A DNA stretch of 64,000 nucleotides from Dechloromonas agitata is5 (GTDB lineage Bacteria; Pseudomonadota; Gammaproteobacteria; Burkholderiales; Rhodocyclaceae): the NCBI RefSeq assembly GCF_000519045.1, contig NZ_KI912532.1, positions 3,153,867-3,217,866 on the forward strand, read 5' to 3'. This document shows positions 4,508 through 13,355 of the stretch, piece by piece (positions within the stretch are counted from its first letter, which is position 1; each line of letters starts with the position of its first letter). Below the pieces are notes generated by a model, which made no database searches, was not told the DNA's origin, and was given only the letters and a program-made list of their open reading frames with translations. A program made the translations under genes and the position numbers.

Positions 4508-5854
4508 ATGAAAAACCGTCATGTTTTACTGATCGACAAAAATTCAAATACCTTCGGCAACATTCAGGCCGCCCCGACCGAAGACATCAACTTTCATTTC
4601 GCAAACTCCATCAACAGTGCCAATGAGGCGCTCTCCAGAAAGCAATACGCGGTCGGCTTGATCGTTCTCGATGCTTTCATTTCAGATAATCTGGAAGCCA
4701 TCGAATCGCTGATCGCCGCCCATTCGAGAACAGAGTGGATTGCGCTCGCCTCCCCGGCCTTGCTGGAAGTCCCCACGGTTCGCTCAGTCATCGCCCGGGC
4801 GTTTTATGACTACCACACCCTGCCGATCGACCGCCAACGGCTACTGATGACCATTGGCCACGCCTGCGGCCTTGCCGATTTCCGGCTCGCGCTGCATCAG
4901 AAGCCAGGCGATGAACCCGGTTATCACGGGATTCTCGGCAACAGCCCGGCGATGCGGGCATTCTTTCAGCAACTCGAGAAAATCGTCGATGCCGACCTGC
5001 CGGTATTGATCGGCGGCGAGACCGGGACCGGCAAGGAACTGGTCGCCCAGGCAATCCACGCCCATTCGCGGCGAGCGCAGGCCCCCTTCGTCGCCCTCAA
5101 TTGCGGGGCGGTGCCGCAAAACCTGATTCAGTCGGAACTATTTGGCCATGAGCGGGGCGCCTTTACCGGGGCGGCCCAACGAAAAATCGGCAATATCGAA
5201 GCCGCCAACGGCGGCATCCTGTTCCTCGATGAAATTGGCGACCTGCCGCTCAGCCTGCAGCCCAATCTGCTGCGTGTCCTGCAGGAACGAACGATCACGC
5301 GGATTGGTTCGACGCAGAGCATTCCCGTCGATTTCCGGATCATTTCCGCTACCCACGTCGACCTCCAGAAAGCCATCGACAACGGCACTTTCCGGGAAGA
5401 CCTCTATTACCGCCTGGGGGTCGTTCATCTCAATCTGCCGCCGCTGCGTGCCCGGCATGACGACATTCCCTTGCTGGCGAATGCCATTTTCAACCGGCTG
5501 TCGGCCAGCCACCCGCAATGCCGGGCCAATGGTTTCACCACCCAGGCCTTGCGCGTCATGAACCATTACGACTGGCCAGGCAATGTCCGGGAACTGATCA
5601 ACCGGATTACGCGGGCAGTCATCCTCTGCGACGGCAAGCTGATCGGGCCGGCGGATCTGGGTTTGAACGCCGAAGGCAACGCCCAGGCGGCCAGGACCCT
5701 GGAGGAAGCGCGGGCATCGTTCGATCGGAACATCCTGGAAATCAGTTTGCGCAACAACGGCAACAACGTGTCGCGGGCCGCTCGCCAGCTTGGGGTATCG
5801 CGCGTTACGTTTTACCGGATGATGAACAAACACAATATCGCAGCCCCCCATTGA
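4508..5854 (+). CDS. VpsR-like sigma-54-dependent activator
   Basis: This 448-aa NtrC-family protein has three parts. Residues 1-125 are a receiver-like domain with LLIDKN and a candidate phospho-acceptor Asp in LIVLDAF, but the usual Lys position reads YHTLPID, so phosphorylation is doubtful. Residues 140-370 are an AAA+ domain with Walker A GETGTGKE, the sigma-54 contact loop GAFTGA, Walker B ILFLDEIGD and the arginine region FREDLYYRL. Residues 400-445 are a Fis-type HTH (NNVSRAARQLGVSRVTFYRM). The degenerate receiver resembles VpsR, a c-di-GMP-responsive biofilm activator. Unlike what I recall for VpsR, the sigma-54 loop is intact. The FapF-like gene follows, and a sigma-54 promoter lies at 11266-11280, making that operon the obvious candidate target (inference). 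Confidence 0.85.
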   Translation: MKNRHVLLIDKNSNTFGNIQAAPTEDINFHFANSINSANEALSRKQYAVGLIVLDAFISDNLEAIESLIAAHSRTEWIALASPALLEVPTVRSVIARAFYDYHTLPIDRQRLLMTIGHACGLADFRLALHQKPGDEPGYHGILGNSPAMRAFFQQLEKIVDADLPVLIGGETGTGKELVAQAIHAHSRRAQAPFVALNCGAVPQNLIQSELFGHERGAFTGAAQRKIGNIEAANGGILFLDEIGDLPLSLQPNLLRVLQERTITRIGSTQSIPVDFRIISATHVDLQKAIDNGTFREDLYYRLGVVHLNLPPLRARHDDIPLLANAIFNRLSASHPQCRANGFTTQALRVMNHYDWPGNVRELINRITRAVILCDGKLIGPADLGLNAEGNAQAARTLEEARASFDRNILEISLRNNGNNVSRAARQLGVSRVTFYRMMNKHNIAAPH

Positions 5855-5983: not shown

Positions 5984-7285
5984 GTGAAAAAAAGAGGAAA
6001 GCTGCCCGGCATCCCACGCACCGGCCCCCGCTGGGTCGGCATGATGGCCCTGCTGTTCACGGGCGTGGCGCAGGGAGCGGATCAGCCGCTGAGTGAAGAA
6101 CAAAGCCTGCGCGAACAGATCATCGAGCAAACCAAACGCTTCGAAGCGCTGAAACGACAGATGGCGGACATGGATGCCAGGCTGCTCGACATGCAGGCCA
6201 GGCTCGACAAGGAAAAGCTCCGTAGCACACGGGCTACCGGATCAAGCCAGCCACGCGGCAACGATGGCTCATTCGACCTGGCCCAGGCTTCCCAGCCGCG
6301 TTCGCAACCGGAGACGGTGGGCCAGCCGGACAATCGCCCCCGCCAACAACAAGTCGCCCAGATCTTCGAACAACCCGGGGTGCTGACCCCGCGCGGCAAG
6401 CTGACGTTGGAGCCGGGCTTGCAGTATGGCTATTCGTCCAGCAACCGGATTTCGCTGGTCGGCTACACGATCATTCCATCCTTGCTGATTGGCCTGATCG
6501 ACATCCGGGAAATCAAACGAAACACCTTCACCGCCAGCCTGACTTCGCGCTGGGGCGTGACCAACCGATTCGAACTCGAGGCGAAACTGCCCTATGTCTA
6601 CCGCTCGGACTCCGTTGTGCAGCGCAAGCTGTTTGACGGTGTTGCCCGCGACGATGTCTTCAGCAGCCAAGGCTCGGGCATCGGCGACTTTGAGGTTACC
6701 GGGCGCTACCAGCTGAACGACGGCGGCGCGGACAACCCCTATTACATCGGCACCCTTCGCTTCAAGAGCCGCAGCGGCAAGGATCCGTTCGAAGTCGAAA
6801 CCGACGCCGTGGCGCCGCCCAACATCTCGAATGAACTGCAAAAGGAACTGCCCACCGGCTCCGGTTTCTACACCATCCAGCCCGGCCTGACCATGCTCTA
6901 CCCGGCCGACCCGGCTGTCTTCTTCGGCAGCATCAGCTACCAGTACAACATCAAACGGTCCAACGTCTCGATGAACACCAGCAATGGCCCCGTCCTGATT
7001 GGCGACATCGCGCCGGGCGGGGTCATCGGCTTCAATTTCGGCATGGGCCTGGCCCTGAATGACCGTTCGTCGTTCAGTATCGGCTATGACCATTCATCGG
7101 TCGGCAGAACCAAAATCAACGGCCAGACCGCGCTCAATTCCGTGCGCACCGAATTGGGTACCCTGCTCCTGGGCTACTCGCACCGCATCAACAAATCGAC
7201 ATCCCTGAATGTCTCCGTGGGCGCCGGTGTAACGCGAGACACCCCGGATGTCCAGCTGTCGGTTCGCCTGCCGATGACCTTCTGA
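5984..7285 (+). CDS. FapF-like outer-membrane beta-barrel secretion porin
   Basis: The protein has 433 aa from the GTG at 5984, chosen because GGGGG lies 5 nt upstream; a GTG at 5972 would add four residues. A signal peptide ends about TGVAQGA. Residues 35-75 form a heptad-like coiled coil (EEQSLREQIIEQTKRFEALK, then MADMDARLLDMQ). A Gln/Arg-rich linker follows, and from about residue 115 there is a barrel of alternating polar/hydrophobic strands ending in the aromatic RLPMTF. Signal, coiled-coil plug, linker and a barrel of about 300 residues is the architecture of FapF, which exports amyloid subunits in Pseudomonas. The gene converges on the C39-peptidase operon. A generic phenol-degradation-type transporter barrel is the alternative. 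Confidence 0.65.
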   Translation: MKKRGKLPGIPRTGPRWVGMMALLFTGVAQGADQPLSEEQSLREQIIEQTKRFEALKRQMADMDARLLDMQARLDKEKLRSTRATGSSQPRGNDGSFDLAQASQPRSQPETVGQPDNRPRQQQVAQIFEQPGVLTPRGKLTLEPGLQYGYSSSNRISLVGYTIIPSLLIGLIDIREIKRNTFTASLTSRWGVTNRFELEAKLPYVYRSDSVVQRKLFDGVARDDVFSSQGSGIGDFEVTGRYQLNDGGADNPYYIGTLRFKSRSGKDPFEVETDAVAPPNISNELQKELPTGSGFYTIQPGLTMLYPADPAVFFGSISYQYNIKRSNVSMNTSNGPVLIGDIAPGGVIGFNFGMGLALNDRSSFSIGYDHSSVGRTKINGQTALNSVRTELGTLLLGYSHRINKSTSLNVSVGAGVTRDTPDVQLSVRLPMTF

Positions 7286-7313: not shown

Positions 7314-8201
7314 CTAGCGGCGGAGGGAATTGACGATCCCGTTCTGGACCGCCGACTGCACGGACATGCCACGCAGGATCTGGGAGGCATTGACCGTCGC
7401 ATTGACGGTCGTCACGCTCTGGATTTTCTGGTTATCGAGACTGTTCTGCAAAACGGTCGTGGCCAGGCTTGTTCCGACCTGGGTCGCCATCCCGTTGCCA
7501 CCACCGTTCTGAACCACGGCAACCGAGCCCGGCACGCCCGAGGTGATGGCGACCTGCGGGTTGCCGGAACCGGCTGCCAGTTGCAGATCCTTGACATTGA
7601 GCACGGTCGAGGCAACCAGCTGGCCATTGATGAACACGGCCCGCTCGATGCCAAACGAGAATTTGAGGTTGCTGTCAGCCAATTCGAATCCACCGCGGAT
7701 TTCATCCAGCGAGGTATCGGCCAACGCCACCAGTTCCTTGCCGAGCGGACTGGGCTGATCAGCCCTGCGCCCGGCCGGCGCAATGTCGTCGGGCAGTTGC
7801 GCGACAGCCGGTTCGCCCGGCCGGGCCATGGGTTCGAGCGGCGCGCCATCGAGGGCACGGGCTTGGGGAAATTCCGGCAAATCGAGGGCGACGACTGTCA
7901 CGCCAGCCTCGTTGCGGCATTCCGCCGGCTCGCTGCTGTCCAGCGGCCAACTGGCCAGGGCCAGTATCTCGGGGGCAATTTCCAGCGAACGACGGATGGC
8001 CTCTTCACAAGTGCGGAAAGGCGGCATGCCAGGCTGCAGCAGCGCCACGCCGAGGACTTCGGAGGTCTCGTCATGGATATCAGCCGTGGAATCCGTGGCT
8101 TGCGGCTTGCTGGCACAGAGCGTGCCAGCCGAGAAGCACAGCAGCAGGGAAAGCCCGATCTTGCGAATCCGCAGGCTGGAGACGGCAGTTCCCGGGGGCA
8201 T
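7314..8201 (-). CDS. FapE-like exported protein with Q/N-rich C-terminus
   Basis: The protein has 295 aa from the ATG at 8201; its AGGAG Shine-Dalgarno overlaps the upstream gene's stop, whereas the longer frame lacks one. A signal peptide reads LSLLLCFSAGTLCA. The middle has a conserved-looking block: LDEIRGGFELADSNLKFSFGI followed by ERAVFINGQLVAST. The last 80 residues are low-complexity with repeated VVQNGGGN, TTVLQNS and SAVQNGIVN. The same Q-N-S/G pattern recurs at the C-termini of the two other exported proteins of this operon. Position after the C39 protein and the LRGG-type block suggest a Fap minor component. Sequence similarity to FapE itself is not demonstrated. Confidence 0.6.
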   Translation of the reverse strand: MPPGTAVSSLRIRKIGLSLLLCFSAGTLCASKPQATDSTADIHDETSEVLGVALLQPGMPPFRTCEEAIRRSLEIAPEILALASWPLDSSEPAECRNEAGVTVVALDLPEFPQARALDGAPLEPMARPGEPAVAQLPDDIAPAGRRADQPSPLGKELVALADTSLDEIRGGFELADSNLKFSFGIERAVFINGQLVASTVLNVKDLQLAAGSGNPQVAITSGVPGSVAVVQNGGGNGMATQVGTSLATTVLQNSLDNQKIQSVTTVNATVNASQILRGMSVQSAVQNGIVNSLRR

Positions 8202-8211
8202 GGGCAAGCTC

Positions 8212-8910
8212 CTAGAAATCGGACGGGCCGCGTTTGGGCAGCATGAACTCGACGCCGGCGCGATAGACCCCGTCGGCCATCGGCCCCTTGGGCATGACGC
8301 GCCAATCGGCGTCGGCATTGAATTTGGCCAACTCGGTCTTGTTGCGGATCACGAACAGGATACGGTTGACCCAGACGCTCTTGAACTGGCTTTGCGGCAT
8401 CACCCGCGTTCCGGCCGATGGATCGCCGATCAGCACACGACCGTCGCGCAGGCCCTTGACCACGACGAAGTGGAAGTAACCGCTCTCCTTGATCAGCGCA
8501 ATGGCCGGAATTCCGGCCAGCTGCAGTTGCTCGAGATCGGCCACGAAGCCGTCAGCGTGAAAGCCATGGGCTTCGAGGTAGGCCTTCATGTCGAGCAGGG
8601 AAAATCCCTCCTGGCGTATCTTGGCCTGATCGCCCCGCTCGAACATTTCCTTGAAGACCATCTGCTCATTGGTCGGATAAGCGTAATGGTGGGTCAGCAG
8701 GGTCGCGAGGGCGGCCGAACCGCAACTGAAATCGTATTTCTGACGAAGGGTATTGCGAAAGCGCAGGTCCTTCATGCTCGTCACCGGCACGGAGAACGCG
8801 CCCCCCGCCTGCACCGGTATTTCGGCCCGCCCGCTATCCGCCGCGCCGGCCGAAGCAGGCAACGTACCCAGAAGCAGGGACAGGAAAAAGTAGACGAGGA
8901 AGACTTTCAT
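8212..8910 (-). CDS. C39 peptidase-like protein, FapD-like
   Basis: The protein has 232 aa from the ATG at 8910. An N-terminal signal or anchor (MKVFLVYFFLSLLLGTLPASA) is followed by a papain-like C39 domain. The oxyanion Gln and catalytic Cys are in LRQKYDFSCGSAALATLL, the His is in GYFHFVVVKGL, and the Asp is in LIGDPSAG. C39 domains usually clip double-glycine leaders inside ABC exporters; a stand-alone periplasmic C39 protein is the hallmark of FapD. No double-glycine leader is evident in the neighbouring secreted proteins, but both small partners carry an RGG segment that could be cut (inference). It sits 10 bp upstream of the FapE-like gene and 13 bp downstream of the small exported protein. 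Confidence 0.8.
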   Translation of the reverse strand: MKVFLVYFFLSLLLGTLPASAGAADSGRAEIPVQAGGAFSVPVTSMKDLRFRNTLRQKYDFSCGSAALATLLTHHYAYPTNEQMVFKEMFERGDQAKIRQEGFSLLDMKAYLEAHGFHADGFVADLEQLQLAGIPAIALIKESGYFHFVVVKGLRDGRVLIGDPSAGTRVMPQSQFKSVWVNRILFVIRNKTELAKFNADADWRVMPKGPMADGVYRAGVEFMLPKRGPSDF

Positions 8911-8923
8911 CGCCAACCCAAAG

Positions 8924-9283
8924 TTATTTGAATTGAACGTTGACGATGGTGGAATTCTGGATCAGCACGTTGTTGCCCGAGTTTTGAATCACCGTCGCCA
9001 AGCCGCTGGTGCCGGCAAACGCGCCTTCACTGATCAGGTTGCCACCCGTGGTCAGGTTATAGGCCTGGTTGTCCCGCACCAGACCGTCCAGCGTCTGCTC
9101 GTTCTTGACGGCACCGCCACGGAGATCGGCCAGCCCTTCGCTGTTGAGCTGACGATCGCCGAATTGAACCTCCGAACCCGCGCCTGAATCTGCGCCTGCT
9201 GCTTCCTCAGCGAGGAGCGAGGCCAGCGGACTTCCGGCGAGAAGGAAGCCAATCACCAGATTGCGAAAAATCGTGTTTGTCAT
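8924..9283 (-). CDS. Small exported protein with RGG segment and Q/N motif
   Basis: This 119-aa protein starts at an ATG with a GGAG site 8 nt upstream. A signal peptide ends near PLASLLAEEA. The mature part has LADLRGGAVKNEQTLDG and a C-terminus rich in Gln/Asn/Val: ATVIQNSGNNVLIQNST, then VNVQFK. The LRGG segment parallels IRGGF in the FapE-like protein, and the tail parallels the large Gly-rich protein. Possible roles are nucleator, minor fibre subunit or chaperone (FapA/FapB position). The first two are inferred from gene order only. Confidence 0.6.
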   Translation of the reverse strand: MTNTIFRNLVIGFLLAGSPLASLLAEEAAGADSGAGSEVQFGDRQLNSEGLADLRGGAVKNEQTLDGLVRDNQAYNLTTGGNLISEGAFAGTSGLATVIQNSGNNVLIQNSTIVNVQFK

Positions 9284-9304
9284 GACCAGACTCCGGCATC
9301 CGGC

Positions 9305-9333
9305 AAAAACCCGGAGGCCTTGCGGCCCCCGGG
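9305..9333 (-). terminator. Intrinsic terminator after the Gly-rich structural gene
   Basis: Read on the minus strand, arms CCCGGGGGCC and GGCCTCCGGG enclose the GCAA loop and are followed by TTTTTG. It lies 9 bp after the Gly-rich gene stop and 22 bp before the next start, so it should cut transcription of the downstream genes to read-through level. Confidence 0.75.
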
Positions 9334-9342
9334 ATTCGTCCG

Positions 9343-11205
9343 TTACTTGCCAACGTTCATGTTGGCTTGAACATTGACCGATTGCTGCACCAGGGAGGAC
9401 ATGCCGCTGTTCTGGCTGGACACCATGATGCCCGCGCCATTGGTGAAGCTGCTGGTAATGTTGTTGGACATGTTGAAGGTTCCCGCATCGACGGTCACCG
9501 TGCCTCCGTTGCCACCTGCCCCACCGGTTGCACCGTTGCCCACACCGCCGATACCACCTTCGCCCACGCCACCGGCACCACCCTGGCCGCTTTGGGCACC
9601 GACGGCACCCATCGCACCCTGGGCCGAGCCACCCGTCGCGCTACCGTTGGAGGCCATGGTCGACGATCCGCCATTGGTGGCCGAGCCATTGCTGGCCGCA
9701 CCGCCGGCGCCGCCGGCACCACCGTTGTTGGTGGCCTGGCCGCCTGTGCCGCCGGTTGCTGTGCCGGCCGCCGCCGTTGCGGTGGAGGTGCCGGTATTGG
9801 TACCACCAGCCGCAGTGGTTGCCCCCGAGGTCACGGCACCGCCGGCGGCCGAGGTGGTGCTGGTCGACGCACCGCCGGTACCCGTTGCGGCACCGCCCGT
9901 TGCACCGGTCGCGCTGGCAGTCGACGAGCCGGTCGCTGTGCCGGCAGTCGTCGTGGCCGGGCCAGCCTGGCTGTTGCCGCTGGTCGCATTGCCGCTGGCG
10001 CTGGCATTGCCGGTGGACGCACTGGTCTGGCCGGTTGTGGCAGAGCCGCCCGGTGCCGGAGCGGCAGCGGCAGCCGCCTGCTCGGTACTCGGCTCAAGCA
10101 CACCGGTTCCACCCATCGCCCCATTGAATGCAGCTGCACCACCGGACGGTGCCGTGTTGGTCACCCCGGCAAATCCGGAACTGGATTTCTGCATCGACAT
10201 GGCCGCACCGCCCATGGCACTGTCACTGGATGTGGCGAGGCCACCTTTGGCGACGCTGGTCGCGTCGGCGCCACCGGCCTTGGTCAGGCTGCCAGCGTTC
10301 GTCGAGCCGCTCTTGGTCATGCTGACCGCATCGGAGCCACCGGCTTTCTGCATGTTGCCGGAAGAAGCATTGCCACCCGAGGCCGTTGCATCGCCAACAG
10401 AACCACCCGTGGCGTTCTTGGCGAGGCCGCCATTACCGCCGTTGCCGGCGGTGGCGCTGCCGTTGGTCGCACTGCCGTTGCTGGCATCGCCGGCGGTGGC
10501 GCTGCCGTTGCTTGCGCTGGCAACACCGCCGCTGCCGCCGCTGCCGCCATTGCCGCCATTACCGCTGTTGCCGCCATTGCCACCGGTGCCGCCGTTACCG
10601 GTACCGCCAATCCCCGTGCCGCCCTTGCCGCCGGCAGCACCGTTGGCCGAGCCGCCCCAGTTGGTGGCTTCATTGCCGATGCCGAAAATCTTGTTGCCGC
10701 TGACCGTTCCGTTCAATTCGGTCTTGGCGATCGCCTTGCTGGTGTTGAAGGCATTGTTGAAATTCGACGTGGCGGTACCACCATTGTTGGCGGCAGTACC
10801 GTAGTCCTTGGCTCTGGCATCACCTTCGTTATTGCTGTTGGTATCTGTTTCAGTCTTGGAAACCGACACCGTCTTGGTGTTGGTCTTCGTCAGCGTGAGG
10901 TTCTTGGTGTCCGTTTCGGTCGACGTGAACGTCTTGCTGTTGTTGCTGTTGTCGGTGGCCGTCGAAGCCTCGTTCGCCTGAACGTTGCCGAGTCCTGCCT
11001 GGTCCGAATTAGCGGTCGCCGTCTGCTGGAAGGCAGCACTCCCCACCGGCACCTGGGTCGAATCTGCGGCCTGGGTGGTCGGCTGGCTTTGCGTGGTGGC
11101 CGGCGGGTTGAGCGTGACCGTCGTGGCATTGTTGGTCGGATTCGCCAGCGCGGCCGATGAACCAAAGGCCAATGCAATAGCGGTTGCCATGAGTGACTTG
11201 TTCAT
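9343..11205 (-). CDS. Large Gly/Ala/Ser/Thr-rich exported repeat protein (putative fibre subunit)
   Basis: The protein has 620 aa from the ATG at 11205, with AGGAG nearby; the longer frame to 11262 lacks a site. The signal peptide is LMATAIALAFGSSAALA. Then come: a Thr/Gln/Asn segment; residues about 70-120 with alternating T/K/S (TLTKTNTKTVSVSKTETDT); a Gly-rich block about 185-225 (GNGGTGGNGGNSGNGG); repeated NGSATAG units; short S-x-x-K repeats (SMTK, SLTK, SVAK, SMQK); and a long Ala/Thr/Gly/Ser tract. The C-terminus is SGMSSLVQQSVNVQANMNVGK-like. I see no Cys, so the CxxC of FapB/FapC is absent. It probably forms extracellular fibres or a surface layer; homology is not recognised and the role is inferred from the operon. 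Confidence 0.7.
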   Translation of the reverse strand: MNKSLMATAIALAFGSSAALANPTNNATTVTLNPPATTQSQPTTQAADSTQVPVGSAAFQQTATANSDQAGLGNVQANEASTATDNSNNSKTFTSTETDTKNLTLTKTNTKTVSVSKTETDTNSNNEGDARAKDYGTAANNGGTATSNFNNAFNTSKAIAKTELNGTVSGNKIFGIGNEATNWGGSANGAAGGKGGTGIGGTGNGGTGGNGGNSGNGGNGGSGGSGGVASASNGSATAGDASNGSATNGSATAGNGGNGGLAKNATGGSVGDATASGGNASSGNMQKAGGSDAVSMTKSGSTNAGSLTKAGGADATSVAKGGLATSSDSAMGGAAMSMQKSSSGFAGVTNTAPSGGAAAFNGAMGGTGVLEPSTEQAAAAAAPAPGGSATTGQTSASTGNASASGNATSGNSQAGPATTTAGTATGSSTASATGATGGAATGTGGASTSTTSAAGGAVTSGATTAAGGTNTGTSTATAAAGTATGGTGGQATNNGGAGGAGGAASNGSATNGGSSTMASNGSATGGSAQGAMGAVGAQSGQGGAGGVGEGGIGGVGNGATGGAGGNGGTVTVDAGTFNMSNNITSSFTNGAGIMVSSQNSGMSSLVQQSVNVQANMNVGK

Positions 11206-11265
11206 GTGGATTCTCCTGATCAAGGTTAGACGCTGCCCCATGCCGCGCCCTCCGCAGCCCATTTA

Positions 11266-11280
11266 GCAATGCCTGTGCCA
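11266..11280 (-). promoter_or_regulatory. Sigma-54 (-24/-12) promoter of the Gly-rich operon
   Basis: On the minus strand the sequence is TGGCACAGGCATTGC, an essentially perfect match to TGGCAC-N5-TTGC with 10 nt between the GG and GC. It lies about 60 nt before the ATG at 11205, leaving a leader of about 50 nt. A GAFTGA-containing activator is encoded at 4508-5854. Confidence 0.85.
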
Positions 11281-11647: not shown

Positions 11648-12739
11648 ATGATCTATTTGTCTCAGGCGAACCAGGGAGCGCAGATCGTGGCCACAACGAG
11701 CGGATTAAGCACGGGCAAGATACGGAAAGGCCATGAATCGATTCGCCGATTTGTCGTGTCGGGCGATGCCGAATTTCGGACGCGGCAACCGGAAGAATCG
11801 GCTCGCACAAGCCATCATGACCTCCAAACGACCATTCGCCGCCTGGAAGCCACGAACAAGGATCTGAGCACATCGAATGCCGGGATCCTCGCCCTCAACG
11901 ACAAGTTGCTGACTGAAAACCGGCAACTGCAGGCCAGGGTCGTCGAACTGGAAAGTAGCAATCACGCTGCCATCGCCCTGCGCTGCATGGCCGACTCGCT
12001 GGAAGAGCGCGTCCGCCAAAGCACCGCCCAACTGCGCGCGCTGAATGCCGAATTGACGCTGACGGAAGACCGGGAGCGACGCATCCTGGCCCGTGATCTG
12101 CATGACGACCTCGGCCAGGTGCTGGCCATCGTCAAGATCAAGTTGTCGGCGATCGAGGGCTCGGAGCGACGCGGCATGCTCAAGGCGGCCCTGAAGGATA
12201 TCGAGCAGTTGATCGACCAGGCCAACCGCTCGGTCCGCTCGCTGATGCTGCAATTGAGCCCGCCAATCCTGCAAACGCTCGGCCTGATACCGGCCCTCGA
12301 ATGGCTGGCCGAGGAAATGGAGCGCCTGTACGGCCTTGTCGTCCACATCGACAGCGAGGGGAAGCTGCCGAATATCGCAGAGCCGGCACGAACCACTGTT
12401 TTTCGTTCCATTCGCGAGTTGCTGATCAATGTCGCCAAGCATGCGGAAACCCCTCGGGCACAGGTTTTTTGTCATCCCGGGGAGGATGGGCTGGTGTGCC
12501 TTTCGGTCACCGACCAGGGGCACGGCTTCAACTACCAGGAAACGCTGTGCAAGCCGGTTGGCGACGCCGGATTCGGCCTGCTCAGCGTGCGGGAACGAAT
12601 CGAATTCATCGGCGGAAGGATGGACGTAGACAGCCAGCCGGGGTACGGAACAACCATATCCATCATCTTTCCAGGTGAACAGGAGAGCGGCAGTCAAGGG
12701 GGAGGAAACAATGACCATTCGGGTGATGCTGGTCGATGA
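11648..12739 (+). CDS. Cytoplasmic NarX-type sensor histidine kinase
   Basis: This protein has up to 363 aa. A GTG at 11687 has a better Shine-Dalgarno (AGGGAG) and would give 350 aa. There is no membrane segment. Residues 55-140 are a long coiled coil (HDLQTTIRRLEATNKDLS and following) like the linkers of CheR/PAS proteins. The HisKA_3 dimerisation helix carries the phospho-His in ERRILARDLHDDLGQ. The HATPase has N-box RELLINVAKHA, G1 DQGHGF and G2 GFGLLSVRERI. It overlaps the response-regulator gene by 29 bp. The input signal is unknown. Its position next to the surface-fibre operon suggests, but does not show, that it regulates it. Confidence 0.88.
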   Translation: MIYLSQANQGAQIVATTSGLSTGKIRKGHESIRRFVVSGDAEFRTRQPEESARTSHHDLQTTIRRLEATNKDLSTSNAGILALNDKLLTENRQLQARVVELESSNHAAIALRCMADSLEERVRQSTAQLRALNAELTLTEDRERRILARDLHDDLGQVLAIVKIKLSAIEGSERRGMLKAALKDIEQLIDQANRSVRSLMLQLSPPILQTLGLIPALEWLAEEMERLYGLVVHIDSEGKLPNIAEPARTTVFRSIRELLINVAKHAETPRAQVFCHPGEDGLVCLSVTDQGHGFNYQETLCKPVGDAGFGLLSVRERIEFIGGRMDVDSQPGYGTTISIIFPGEQESGSQGGGNNDHSGDAGR

Positions 12740-13355
12740 CCACAAGATTCTTCGCGAGGCGCTGAAAGGAATCCTCGATCGCGAGCACGACATCACGCTG
12801 GTCGGAGAAGCGAACGATGGCTCCGAAGCGCTGACGCTCGCCAGCCAGTGCCATCCCGATATCGTTCTGATGGATGTCGGCATGCCCATGATGGGCGGTA
12901 TCGAAGCAACGCGCCTCCTGGTCGAGAAGCATCCGGCGATCAAGGTCATCGCACTCTCGACTTTTTCCGACCGCCGGATCGTCATGCAGATGCTCGATGC
13001 CGGAGCGCGCGGCTACATCGTCAAATCGGCCGGGCGCGATGAACTGCTGCGCGGCATCCGCGCCGTCGCCCATGGCAGAACCTACCTGTGCCCCGACGCC
13101 TCTTCGGTGCTGGTGGACAGCGTGCGCAACAAGAACCCTGCCGAACCGTTCGCCAGCGAGCGCCTTGGCAAGCGGGAGCGCGAAGTCCTGCAATTGCTCT
13201 CGGAAGGCCATACCTCGCCTGAAATCGGCAAGCGCCTCTATATCGCGACCAGCACGGTCGAGGTGCATCGTCGGAACATCATGCGCAAACTTGAATTGCA
13301 CAGCATTGCCGAGTTGACCAAATACGCCATCCGCAATGGCCTGACCTCATCCTGA
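12711..13355 (+). CDS. NarL/LuxR-family response regulator
   Basis: The protein has 214 aa from the ATG at 12711, which has a strong GGGGGAGG site; the frame is open 12 codons further up. The receiver domain (residues 1-120) has MLVDDH, phospho-acceptor Asp in DIVLMDVGMP, the Thr/Ser position in ALSTFSD and Lys in GYIVKSAG. The LuxR HTH (about 150-210) reads GKREREVLQLLSEGHTSPEI then TSTVEVHRRNIMRKL. It is the cognate partner of the overlapping kinase. It converges on the RtcA-like gene with a 9-bp overlap at the stops. Confidence 0.92.
   Translation: MTIRVMLVDDHKILREALKGILDREHDITLVGEANDGSEALTLASQCHPDIVLMDVGMPMMGGIEATRLLVEKHPAIKVIALSTFSDRRIVMQMLDAGARGYIVKSAGRDELLRGIRAVAHGRTYLCPDASSVLVDSVRNKNPAEPFASERLGKREREVLQLLSEGHTSPEIGKRLYIATSTVEVHRRNIMRKLELHSIAELTKYAIRNGLTSS

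Follow-up and report, generated by a model that had tools for sequence, protein, structure and literature searches.

A 64,000-nucleotide stretch of the genome of Dechloromonas agitata is5 (contig NZ_KI912532.1, positions 3,153,867 to 3,217,866; hereafter the window) encodes three exported-looking proteins with a related Gln/Asn (Q/N)-rich tail, together with a C39 peptidase and an outer-membrane barrel. We propose, with a rough probability of 0.63, that this is a Fap-type extracellular fibre locus, in which the shared tail would be a divergent repeat layer of a mixed cross-beta stack and the C39 peptidase would trim two of the three tail proteins, P119 and a FapE-like protein. The parts are of known kinds, namely relatives of FapD and FapF, a FapE-like protein and a Fap repeat. 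The features of the locus are listed below with their window positions, strand and the evidence used.

9343..11205 (-): LARGE, a 620-residue Gly/Ala/Ser/Thr-rich exported protein (open reading frame, signal-like N-terminus MNKSLMATAIALAFGSSAALA)
10639..10755 (-): conserved N-block of LARGE, residues 151-189 (LNGTVSGN; weak P119 match)
9361..9477 (-): tail of LARGE, residues 577-615, putatively one divergent Fap-type repeat (profile-profile comparison)
8924..9283 (-): P119, a 119-residue pre-protein (open reading frame; family-profile conservation)
9113..9148 (-): double-glycine leader site of P119, residues 46-57, LNSEGLADLRGG (family site alignment)
8933..9049 (-): tail of P119, residues 79-117, putatively one Fap-type repeat (profile)
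8212..8910 (-): C39 cysteine peptidase, FapD-like, 232 residues, signal-like N-terminus (Pfam, NCBIfam)
7314..8201 (-): FapE-like pre-protein, 295 residues (position after the peptidase, leader frame, Q/N segments)
7689..7724 (-): double-glycine leader site of the FapE-like protein, residues 160-171, LADTSLDEIRGG (family site alignment)
7395..7511 (-): Q/N segment of the FapE-like protein, residues 231-269 (profile relation to the P119 tail)
5984..7285 (+): FapF-like outer-membrane barrel, convergent with the other genes (NCBIfam FapF, phmmer)

LARGE, P119, the C39 peptidase and the FapE-like protein are encoded in this transcription order on the minus strand, and the barrel gene and a gene for a sigma-54 activator lie on the plus strand. 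The peptidase gene, the fourth gene, sits between those of the FapE-like protein and P119. Export of LARGE, P119 and the FapE-like protein was judged by eye from signal-peptide-like N-termini.

Relationship among the tails

An earlier note on this DNA had described a common C-terminal motif in the three proteins. All the strings that it quoted were found: LARGE ends in VSSQNSGMSSLVQQSVNVQANMNVGK, P119 ends in ATVIQNSGNNVLIQNSTIVNVQFK, and the FapE-like protein contains VAVVQNGGGN...TTVLQNSLDNQKIQSVTTVNATVN...SAVQNGIVNSLRR. The C-terminal placing did not hold for the last protein, in which the related stretch covers residues 231-269 of 295 and stops ~26 residues short of the end; its SAVQNGIVN lies outside the profile-shared stretch.

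Family profiles were built from loci found via the peptidase and contained 109 (P119), 87 (LARGE tail) and 101 (FapE-like) distinct sequences. A tail-pattern filter had kept 93 of 96 LARGE sequences and excluded 3; 4 of 107 FapE-like sequences without L[ADEG]xxRGG[FY] and 1 of 113 P119 sequences that was too short were also excluded, and then duplicates. In hhalign comparisons, the P119 tail matched the LARGE tail (92.5%; expectation value, E, 4.8e-7; reversed template, 0.14) and the FapE-like segment (84.8%; E 6.6e-6; reversed template, 0.04), and none of 100 column-permuted controls reached the observed score in either case. With all 96 LARGE sequences and no tail-pattern filter, the P119-LARGE match was retained at 90.3% (E 1.5e-6). 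These results indicate that the tails are related beyond composition. The positions of the P119 tail that were invariant in 46 rows of mature P119 were N25, G37, Q43, N44, G46, V49, I51 and Q52.

When the P119 profile was run against the D. agitata genome (3.6 Mb, one contig), P119 alone was recovered even at E ≤ 10, so the tail relation needs family profiles to be seen. The same search gave no tail-bearing paralogue elsewhere in the genome, a weak test because the profile misses LARGE and the FapE-like protein too. The N-block of LARGE weakly resembled the N-terminal half of mature P119 (E 0.002-0.0085). As a candidate second repeat it was rejected: the published Fap regular expression fits it, yet fitted 14 of 68 LARGE proteins versus 9.95 expected after shuffling, and profiles gave E 0.14.

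The tail as a probable Fap-type repeat

In two related loci, L158 and L159, a protein near P119 holds the tail motif four times, with copies ~55-83 residues apart, and L158 has a second protein of this type downstream. The profile of these tandem repeats (12 copies, 11 distinct) matched the LARGE tails (E 7.7e-9, or 2.4e-8 when the LARGE sequences were not filtered) and the P119 tails (E 2.6e-7), with 0 of 100 column-permuted controls for each. The same profile matched 136 canonical FapB/FapC repeats (88.5%, E 2.7e-6) in register, with columns 3-38 on 3-38; 0 of 150 permuted controls reached this score, and again 0 of 150 when the four selection columns (G/N/G/N) were held fixed. Compared directly with the canonical repeats, the P119 tail gave E 0.0032 (controls, 1/150 and 0/150). 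The LARGE tail is also in register with the Fap repeat. L145 is among the operons from which the canonical repeats were taken; its FapB, FapC and FapE have NCBIfam matches, each scoring under the curated cut-off.

Set against the 39-residue spacing G-x4-[N]-x3-G-x6-[N], the window tails carry a residue other than N at the first N position. The published Fap regular expression matched P119 and the FapE-like protein 0 times and LARGE once, which is near chance. Subunits with about three imperfect repeats, as in FapB and FapC, were thus not seen in the window, and the D. agitata genome gave no FapC match at E ≤ 0.001. In the cryo-electron microscopy structure of the FapC fibril, every repeat is one cross-beta layer with a Greek-key shape (PMC12392863). 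The shared tail is most likely one divergent Fap repeat, and would form one such layer.

Fap subunits of the canonical type at L155:8610-10949 and L156:5388-7307 showed ten and eight strict repeat matches, respectively, in one frame, above the usual three, and 4-16 repeats have been reported in Acidithiobacillus and Vibrio (PMC3792158).

Leader sites and the C39 peptidase

The window peptidase matched Pfam PF03412 (E 1.3e-21), NCBIfam FapD (E 2.1e-38; score 131.9 versus a 330-bit equivalog cut-off) and, below the curated cut-off, NCBIfam FilB (E 1.7e-36). Like FapD, it is a C39 peptidase with the catalytic residues in place. Among 114 C39 relatives, the Cys motif Q..[DS][YFW]SCG was present in all 114, the His motif in 113 and the DP motif in 112.

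A leader-like C39 site, which the earlier note had missed, was found in two of the three tail proteins. It reads L(-12)-NSEG-L(-7)-AD-L(-4)-RGG in P119 and L(-12)-ADTS-L(-7)-DE-I(-4)-RGG in the FapE-like protein, and every position of the double-glycine pattern (L-12, L-7, hydrophobic -4, G-2 and G-1) is present in both. In the P119 family, searched with G-2 fixed and the class at -3 limited, a site was assignable in 108 of 109 proteins, with V/I/L/A at -12 in 97, L-7 in 102 and G-1 in 90. In the FapE-like family, searched with L-7 and G-2 fixed and -3 limited to R/S/T/Q, R-3 and G-1 were found in 104/104 sites. A stricter motif occurred in 55/84 P119 frames and 54/79 FapE frames versus 8/4794 unrelated frames, and in none of the LARGE (0/76), C39 (0/80) and FapF (0/76) frames.

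A similar frame was found in canonical FapE. The FapE proteins of eight operons (L210-L217, family f210), which were found by profile and not by motif, carry [LV]xxxE[LM]xx[LM]RG[RK] (LKDQELAQLRGKY and similar), with E-8, L/M at -7 and L/M at -4 in 8/8 each and L (seven) or V (one) at -12. These operons were taken as Pseudomonas-like because 7/8 have FapC over the NCBIfam cut-off. A further 17 canonical FapE frames came from 26 loci that lack a strong P119 match and were extracted with L-7 and G-2 fixed; among these, R/K occupied -1 in 17, R-3 was present in 16 and M/L/I at -4 in 14. Since -2 is always G while -1 varies, the cut perhaps falls after the first Gly. In the LahT study, V-4, L-7 and L-12 sit in a hydrophobic groove, and the ComA consensus is quoted as L(-12)-X3-E(-8)-L(-7) (PMC6363468). 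A 2017 study obtained no peptides from the first ~70 residues of FapE and reported that the canonical C39 sequence was not seen in Fap proteins (PMC5557850). The missing N-terminal peptides agree with cleavage in FapE, without placing the cut.

A small exported-looking protein with the motif V[IVL]LWDE shares this C39-type leader frame (e.g., LNDDQLGQVRG), and its end is often rich in Q/N. It was found by this motif in 7 of the 26 loci that lack a strong P119 match, namely L157 and six loci with Fap repeats, for example at the following positions.

L145:11252-11581, L146:11070-11381, L151:6876-7265, L178:5795-6151, and others: V[IVL]LWDE protein (motif)

The L145 and L146 copies gave no NCBIfam match, and the L145 copy no Pfam match. 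This protein is possibly a further FapD substrate; as a relative of P119 it was rejected (E 0.42).

Identity of the FapE-like protein

The FapE-like protein is named for its gene position, its leader frame and its Q/N segments; no firm profile match was obtained. The family matched 25 canonical FapE sequences at 76.7% (E 2.1e-5) over 28 columns, largely leader columns, with both sets cut at the leader site; an L177 frame had been removed from the canonical set as not FapE. Clear homology to canonical FapE was rejected, the value going from 2.1e-5 to 0.045 without the selection columns. The column-permutation null for this pair (3/100, one outlier of 132) was unusable, as permuting gapped columns distorts it. 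NCBIfam gave no match at E ≤ 1 for the window FapE-like protein and no FapE match in the mature parts of 37 family members. The likeness of the Q/N stretches in the FapE C-terminus to FapB/C repeats is already published (PMC5557850).

Conservation and distribution

The earlier note had named non-conservation of the tails in orthologues as one observation that would speak against a common export or copolymerisation signal. The tails are kept: among the best 80 of 139 peptidase relatives, a set therefore biased toward near peptidases, P119 was found in 80, the LARGE tail in 79, FapE in 79, FapF in 76 and all five components in 74. In the six incomplete loci the missing component is FapF (four loci), FapE (one) or the LARGE tail (one). 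The profiles used were built mostly from the same loci, and FapF was sought within the fetched stretch. With gene order read from stop-to-stop frames, FapF lies on the same strand in 47 of the 74 complete loci, which thereby share the canonical Fap order subunits-D-E-F. In 24 others it is encoded upstream on the opposite strand, and 3 show the convergent arrangement of the window.

The middle of LARGE shows no conservation, being Gly-rich in the window (G 103, A 77, S 51 and T 50 of the 360 residues 201-560) and Asn/Asp/Ser/Gly-rich in loci L204-L207, in which the tail was still matched (E 2e-3 to 1e-10). LARGE gave no Pfam or NCBIfam match at E ≤ 1, and searches of both libraries with P119 returned no family. 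The Gly-rich middle (window 9526-10638) is crowded with GGx-like triplets; a fold of the polyglycine-II type may be conceivable here. L204 (G827:C11:1022000-1040000) carries two tandem copies of the set LARGE-P119-C39-FapE; the P119 and FapE sequences examined are identical between the copies, and the LARGE sequences differ in their N/D/S/T-rich repeats.

An unrooted peptidase tree was made from 96 rows (L001-L034 and L145 onward passing length and identity filters, together with 22 of the 80 named loci, and without the short copies L115-L144). Seventy tail-bearing rows and L157 (71 in all) fell on one side of a branch with support of 95/98, and 20 rows with FapB/C repeats and L008 (21 in all) on one side of another branch (100/98). 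Four rows with neither tail nor FapB/C repeats lie outside both groups, and the window peptidase is not inside the FapB/C group. L008 and L178 cover one locus with shorter and longer flanks, respectively, and Fap repeats are present in L178; L157 has a weak P119 match (E 0.0074). Judged from these sequences, the locus belongs to a branch that stands next to the known fap operons. Among named records, those closest to the window peptidase were from two Dechloromonas (records of the genome itself were possibly left out), and at least four genomes carry both kinds of locus (G169, G270, G303 and G444). In a 398-genome sample of the phylum, the P119 profile (E ≤ 0.001) was found in 13 genomes, D. 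agitata included, and canonical FapC (NF058558, E ≤ 0.001) in 20; G444 is in both lists.

The system was also seen on large plasmids, namely the megaplasmid of Cupriavidus metallidurans CH34 (L186) and a plasmid of Croceicoccus, an alphaproteobacterium (L185), and it may move between genomes. The genes of the Croceicoccus copy are annotated in RefSeq as hypothetical protein, C39 family peptidase and transporter. In L209 (G764) and L187 (a Vibrio plasmid), the peptidase, P119 or barrel matches are split over several short frames, and the system looks decayed or frameshifted.

Comparison with known systems

The locus shares with canonical fapABCDEF a FapD-type C39 peptidase, the FapF barrel, repeat-bearing subunits and, at the position of FapE, a protein that shows the L-7/-4 RG frame. 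It differs in having one repeat per subunit and not three, a main subunit rich in Gly, P119 where canonical operons have FapB/FapC, a true RGG site and a separate peptidase group. The barrel matched NCBIfam FapF (E 6.2e-49, below cut-off) and the solved FapF 5o67 (phmmer, E 9.8e-36 over residues 116-433). Scans of the window proteins with Pfam and NCBIfam gave no FapA match, the presence of a FapA model in these libraries being unchecked; fapA is often absent from fap operons (PMC3792158).

With the C39 domains of ComA and LahT (PCAT/AMS) the locus has in common the leader pattern L-12, L-7, hydrophobic -4, G-2 and G-1 (PMC6363468). In contrast to these, the window peptidase is free-standing (232 residues), has a signal-like N-terminus and gave no ATP-binding cassette domain in Pfam, and the pre-proteins, unlike PCAT/AMS substrates, have Sec-type signals (by eye) and an internal leader. 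Q/N-rich short repeats that are proposed to stack are also found in curli (CsgA/CsgB); curli was rejected as the identity of the system, with no Curlin_rpt match (Pfam) in the window proteins or the L158/L159 repeat proteins.

Proposed mechanism and alternative explanations

From the sequence relationships, conservation, synteny and leader-motif pattern we infer fibre formation, the roles of the proteins, cleavage at a particular bond and an export route, as follows. Each tail protein would supply a single layer of a mixed cross-beta stack. LARGE, likely the main fibre subunit, would contribute one repeat layer bearing a Gly-rich brush and, having no leader, would be exported whole, like FapC. 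P119, likely a nucleator or minor subunit, and the FapE-like protein would be minor or starting subunits exported via Sec as pre-proteins. The periplasmic C39 peptidase would recognise L-12/L-7/hydrophobic -4 and cut at the R-G-(G) site, removing the pro-part and freeing repeat-bearing C-terminal fragments (62 and 124 residues if cut after GG). The pro-part would hold back early polymerisation, and the trimmed fragments would pass the FapF-like barrel and then start or anchor the fibre.

Several points weigh against this proposal. All of its evidence is sequence comparison. The FapF-like gene is on the opposite strand in the window, which puts the barrel outside the same operon. The tandem L158/L159 repeats and the canonical repeats were cut out by regular expressions of the same spacing. 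Direct comparison was not significant between LARGE and FapE-like tails (6/100 permuted controls reached the score), between the LARGE tail and canonical repeats (27/150 and 32/150) or between the FapE-like segment and canonical repeats (101/150 and 90/150); the link to the canonical repeats runs via the L158/L159 repeats for LARGE and via P119 for FapE. NCBIfam FapB, FapC and FapE match none of the window proteins, and the FapE comparison that starts after the leader site is not significant (E 0.045), the Q/N segment there aligning with the second such segment in canonical FapE. The second Gly is absent in 18/108 P119 sites. The structure model of mature P119 (mean predicted local distance difference test score, pLDDT, 75) has no DSSP element and no PDB relative, and that of the mature FapE-like protein is poor (pLDDT 63.5), also with no PDB relative. 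A single layer without neighbours perhaps cannot fold as a monomer, in which case the two models may be uninformative.

The earlier note had suggested for the tail either a common export signal or copolymerisation. The first of these, in which the FapF-like barrel or its coiled coil would read the tail as a recognition signal and the tail would not stack, is an unlikely explanation. It would account for the position of the tail at the very C-terminus of LARGE and P119, for the barrel in 76/80 loci and for a LARGE tail that is kept while the middle is replaced (window versus L204-L207). Against it, the unit is ~26 residues from the FapE end and internal and in tandem in L158/L159, and its FapC relative is the fibril layer itself (PMC12392863). 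A strictly C-terminal sorting signal was rejected on the same non-terminal and tandem copies, and the export half of the suggestion gained nothing. The copolymerisation half was strengthened by the fourfold unit in single proteins of two relatives and by its in-register match to the FapB/FapC repeat, and we favour it over an export signal for these two reasons.

Somewhat less likely still is convergence, by which unrelated Q/N-rich, beta-forming tails were selected for the same amyloid-prone composition. The low direct scores between LARGE and FapE, and of both with canonical repeats, are what convergence would give. The order of residues matters, however: the 0/100 controls for P119 with LARGE and FapE and for the tandem repeats with LARGE and P119, the 0/150 controls with the selected G/N columns kept, and the failure of reversed templates argue against it. 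The least probable alternative is a non-amyloid adhesin or pilus-like system of the kind of the putative Acinetobacter Fil pilus, whose FilB and FilC families match the C39 peptidase (1.7e-36) and the barrel (4.7e-20), as the barrel fits FapF far better (6.2e-49) and the tail is related to the repeat of Fap. The listed NCBIfam matches of the window proteins included no Fil name besides FilB and FilC; no Fil locus was compared gene by gene.

Regulatory features and neighbouring genes

Two further features may concern regulation of the locus.

4508..5854 (+): sigma-54-dependent activator with a VpsR domain (Pfam Sigma54_activat, E 2.6e-72; VpsR, E 6.2e-15)
11265..11280 (-): sigma-54 promoter-like site TGGCACAGGCATTGCT, ~60 bp before the LARGE start codon

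The activator is a possible regulator of the fibre locus. The site is the only exact sigma-54-type match in the window; with ≤1 mismatch there were 7 matches versus 3.0 expected. Such a site occurs ≤300 bp upstream of LARGE in 11/68 loci versus ~0.5 expected, and was absent from the 300 bp searched in L035 and L036, which are the nearest relatives. Window 11648-13355, upstream of LARGE, encodes on the opposite strand a histidine kinase (HisKA_3) and a response regulator of the LuxR type (Pfam).

Significance

The suspicion that FapD processes FapE is already published (PMC5557850, PMC6173800, PMC12822426). The FapD substrate was given as undetermined in 2018, when fapD-fapF pairs were noted in five further phyla (PMC6173800), and was thought in 2025 to be the FapE N-terminus and FapF (PMC12822426). 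The 2025 review describes Fap as evolutionarily fixed, with three repeats almost universal in FapB and FapC (PMC12822426); its surveys were probably blind to the present branch because they required FapB/C-repeat matches. In the open-access literature, as far as its main texts were seen in part, no description was found of the single-repeat branch, P119 or the FapE leader frame.

It is possible, if a little short of probable, that the locus represents a second, undescribed Fap lineage with one layer per subunit, that FapD cuts a double-glycine-type leader in both lineages, and that removal of the pro-part switches on nucleation. In the phylum sample, the frequency of this putative lineage would be similar in magnitude to that of the known one (13 versus 20 of 398 genomes). 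In such a scheme, the Pseudomonas-type FapE leader [LV]xxxE[LM]xx[LM]RG[RK] would have been overlooked because its second Gly is replaced. If true, the suspected processing of FapE by FapD would gain a defined site and P119 would become a second substrate, and the conserved leader names the residues to change for the question of the FapD substrate. The branch, with a putative main subunit that has one repeat or four and very different linkers, would offer a natural series in which to ask what number of repeats is needed for a fibre.

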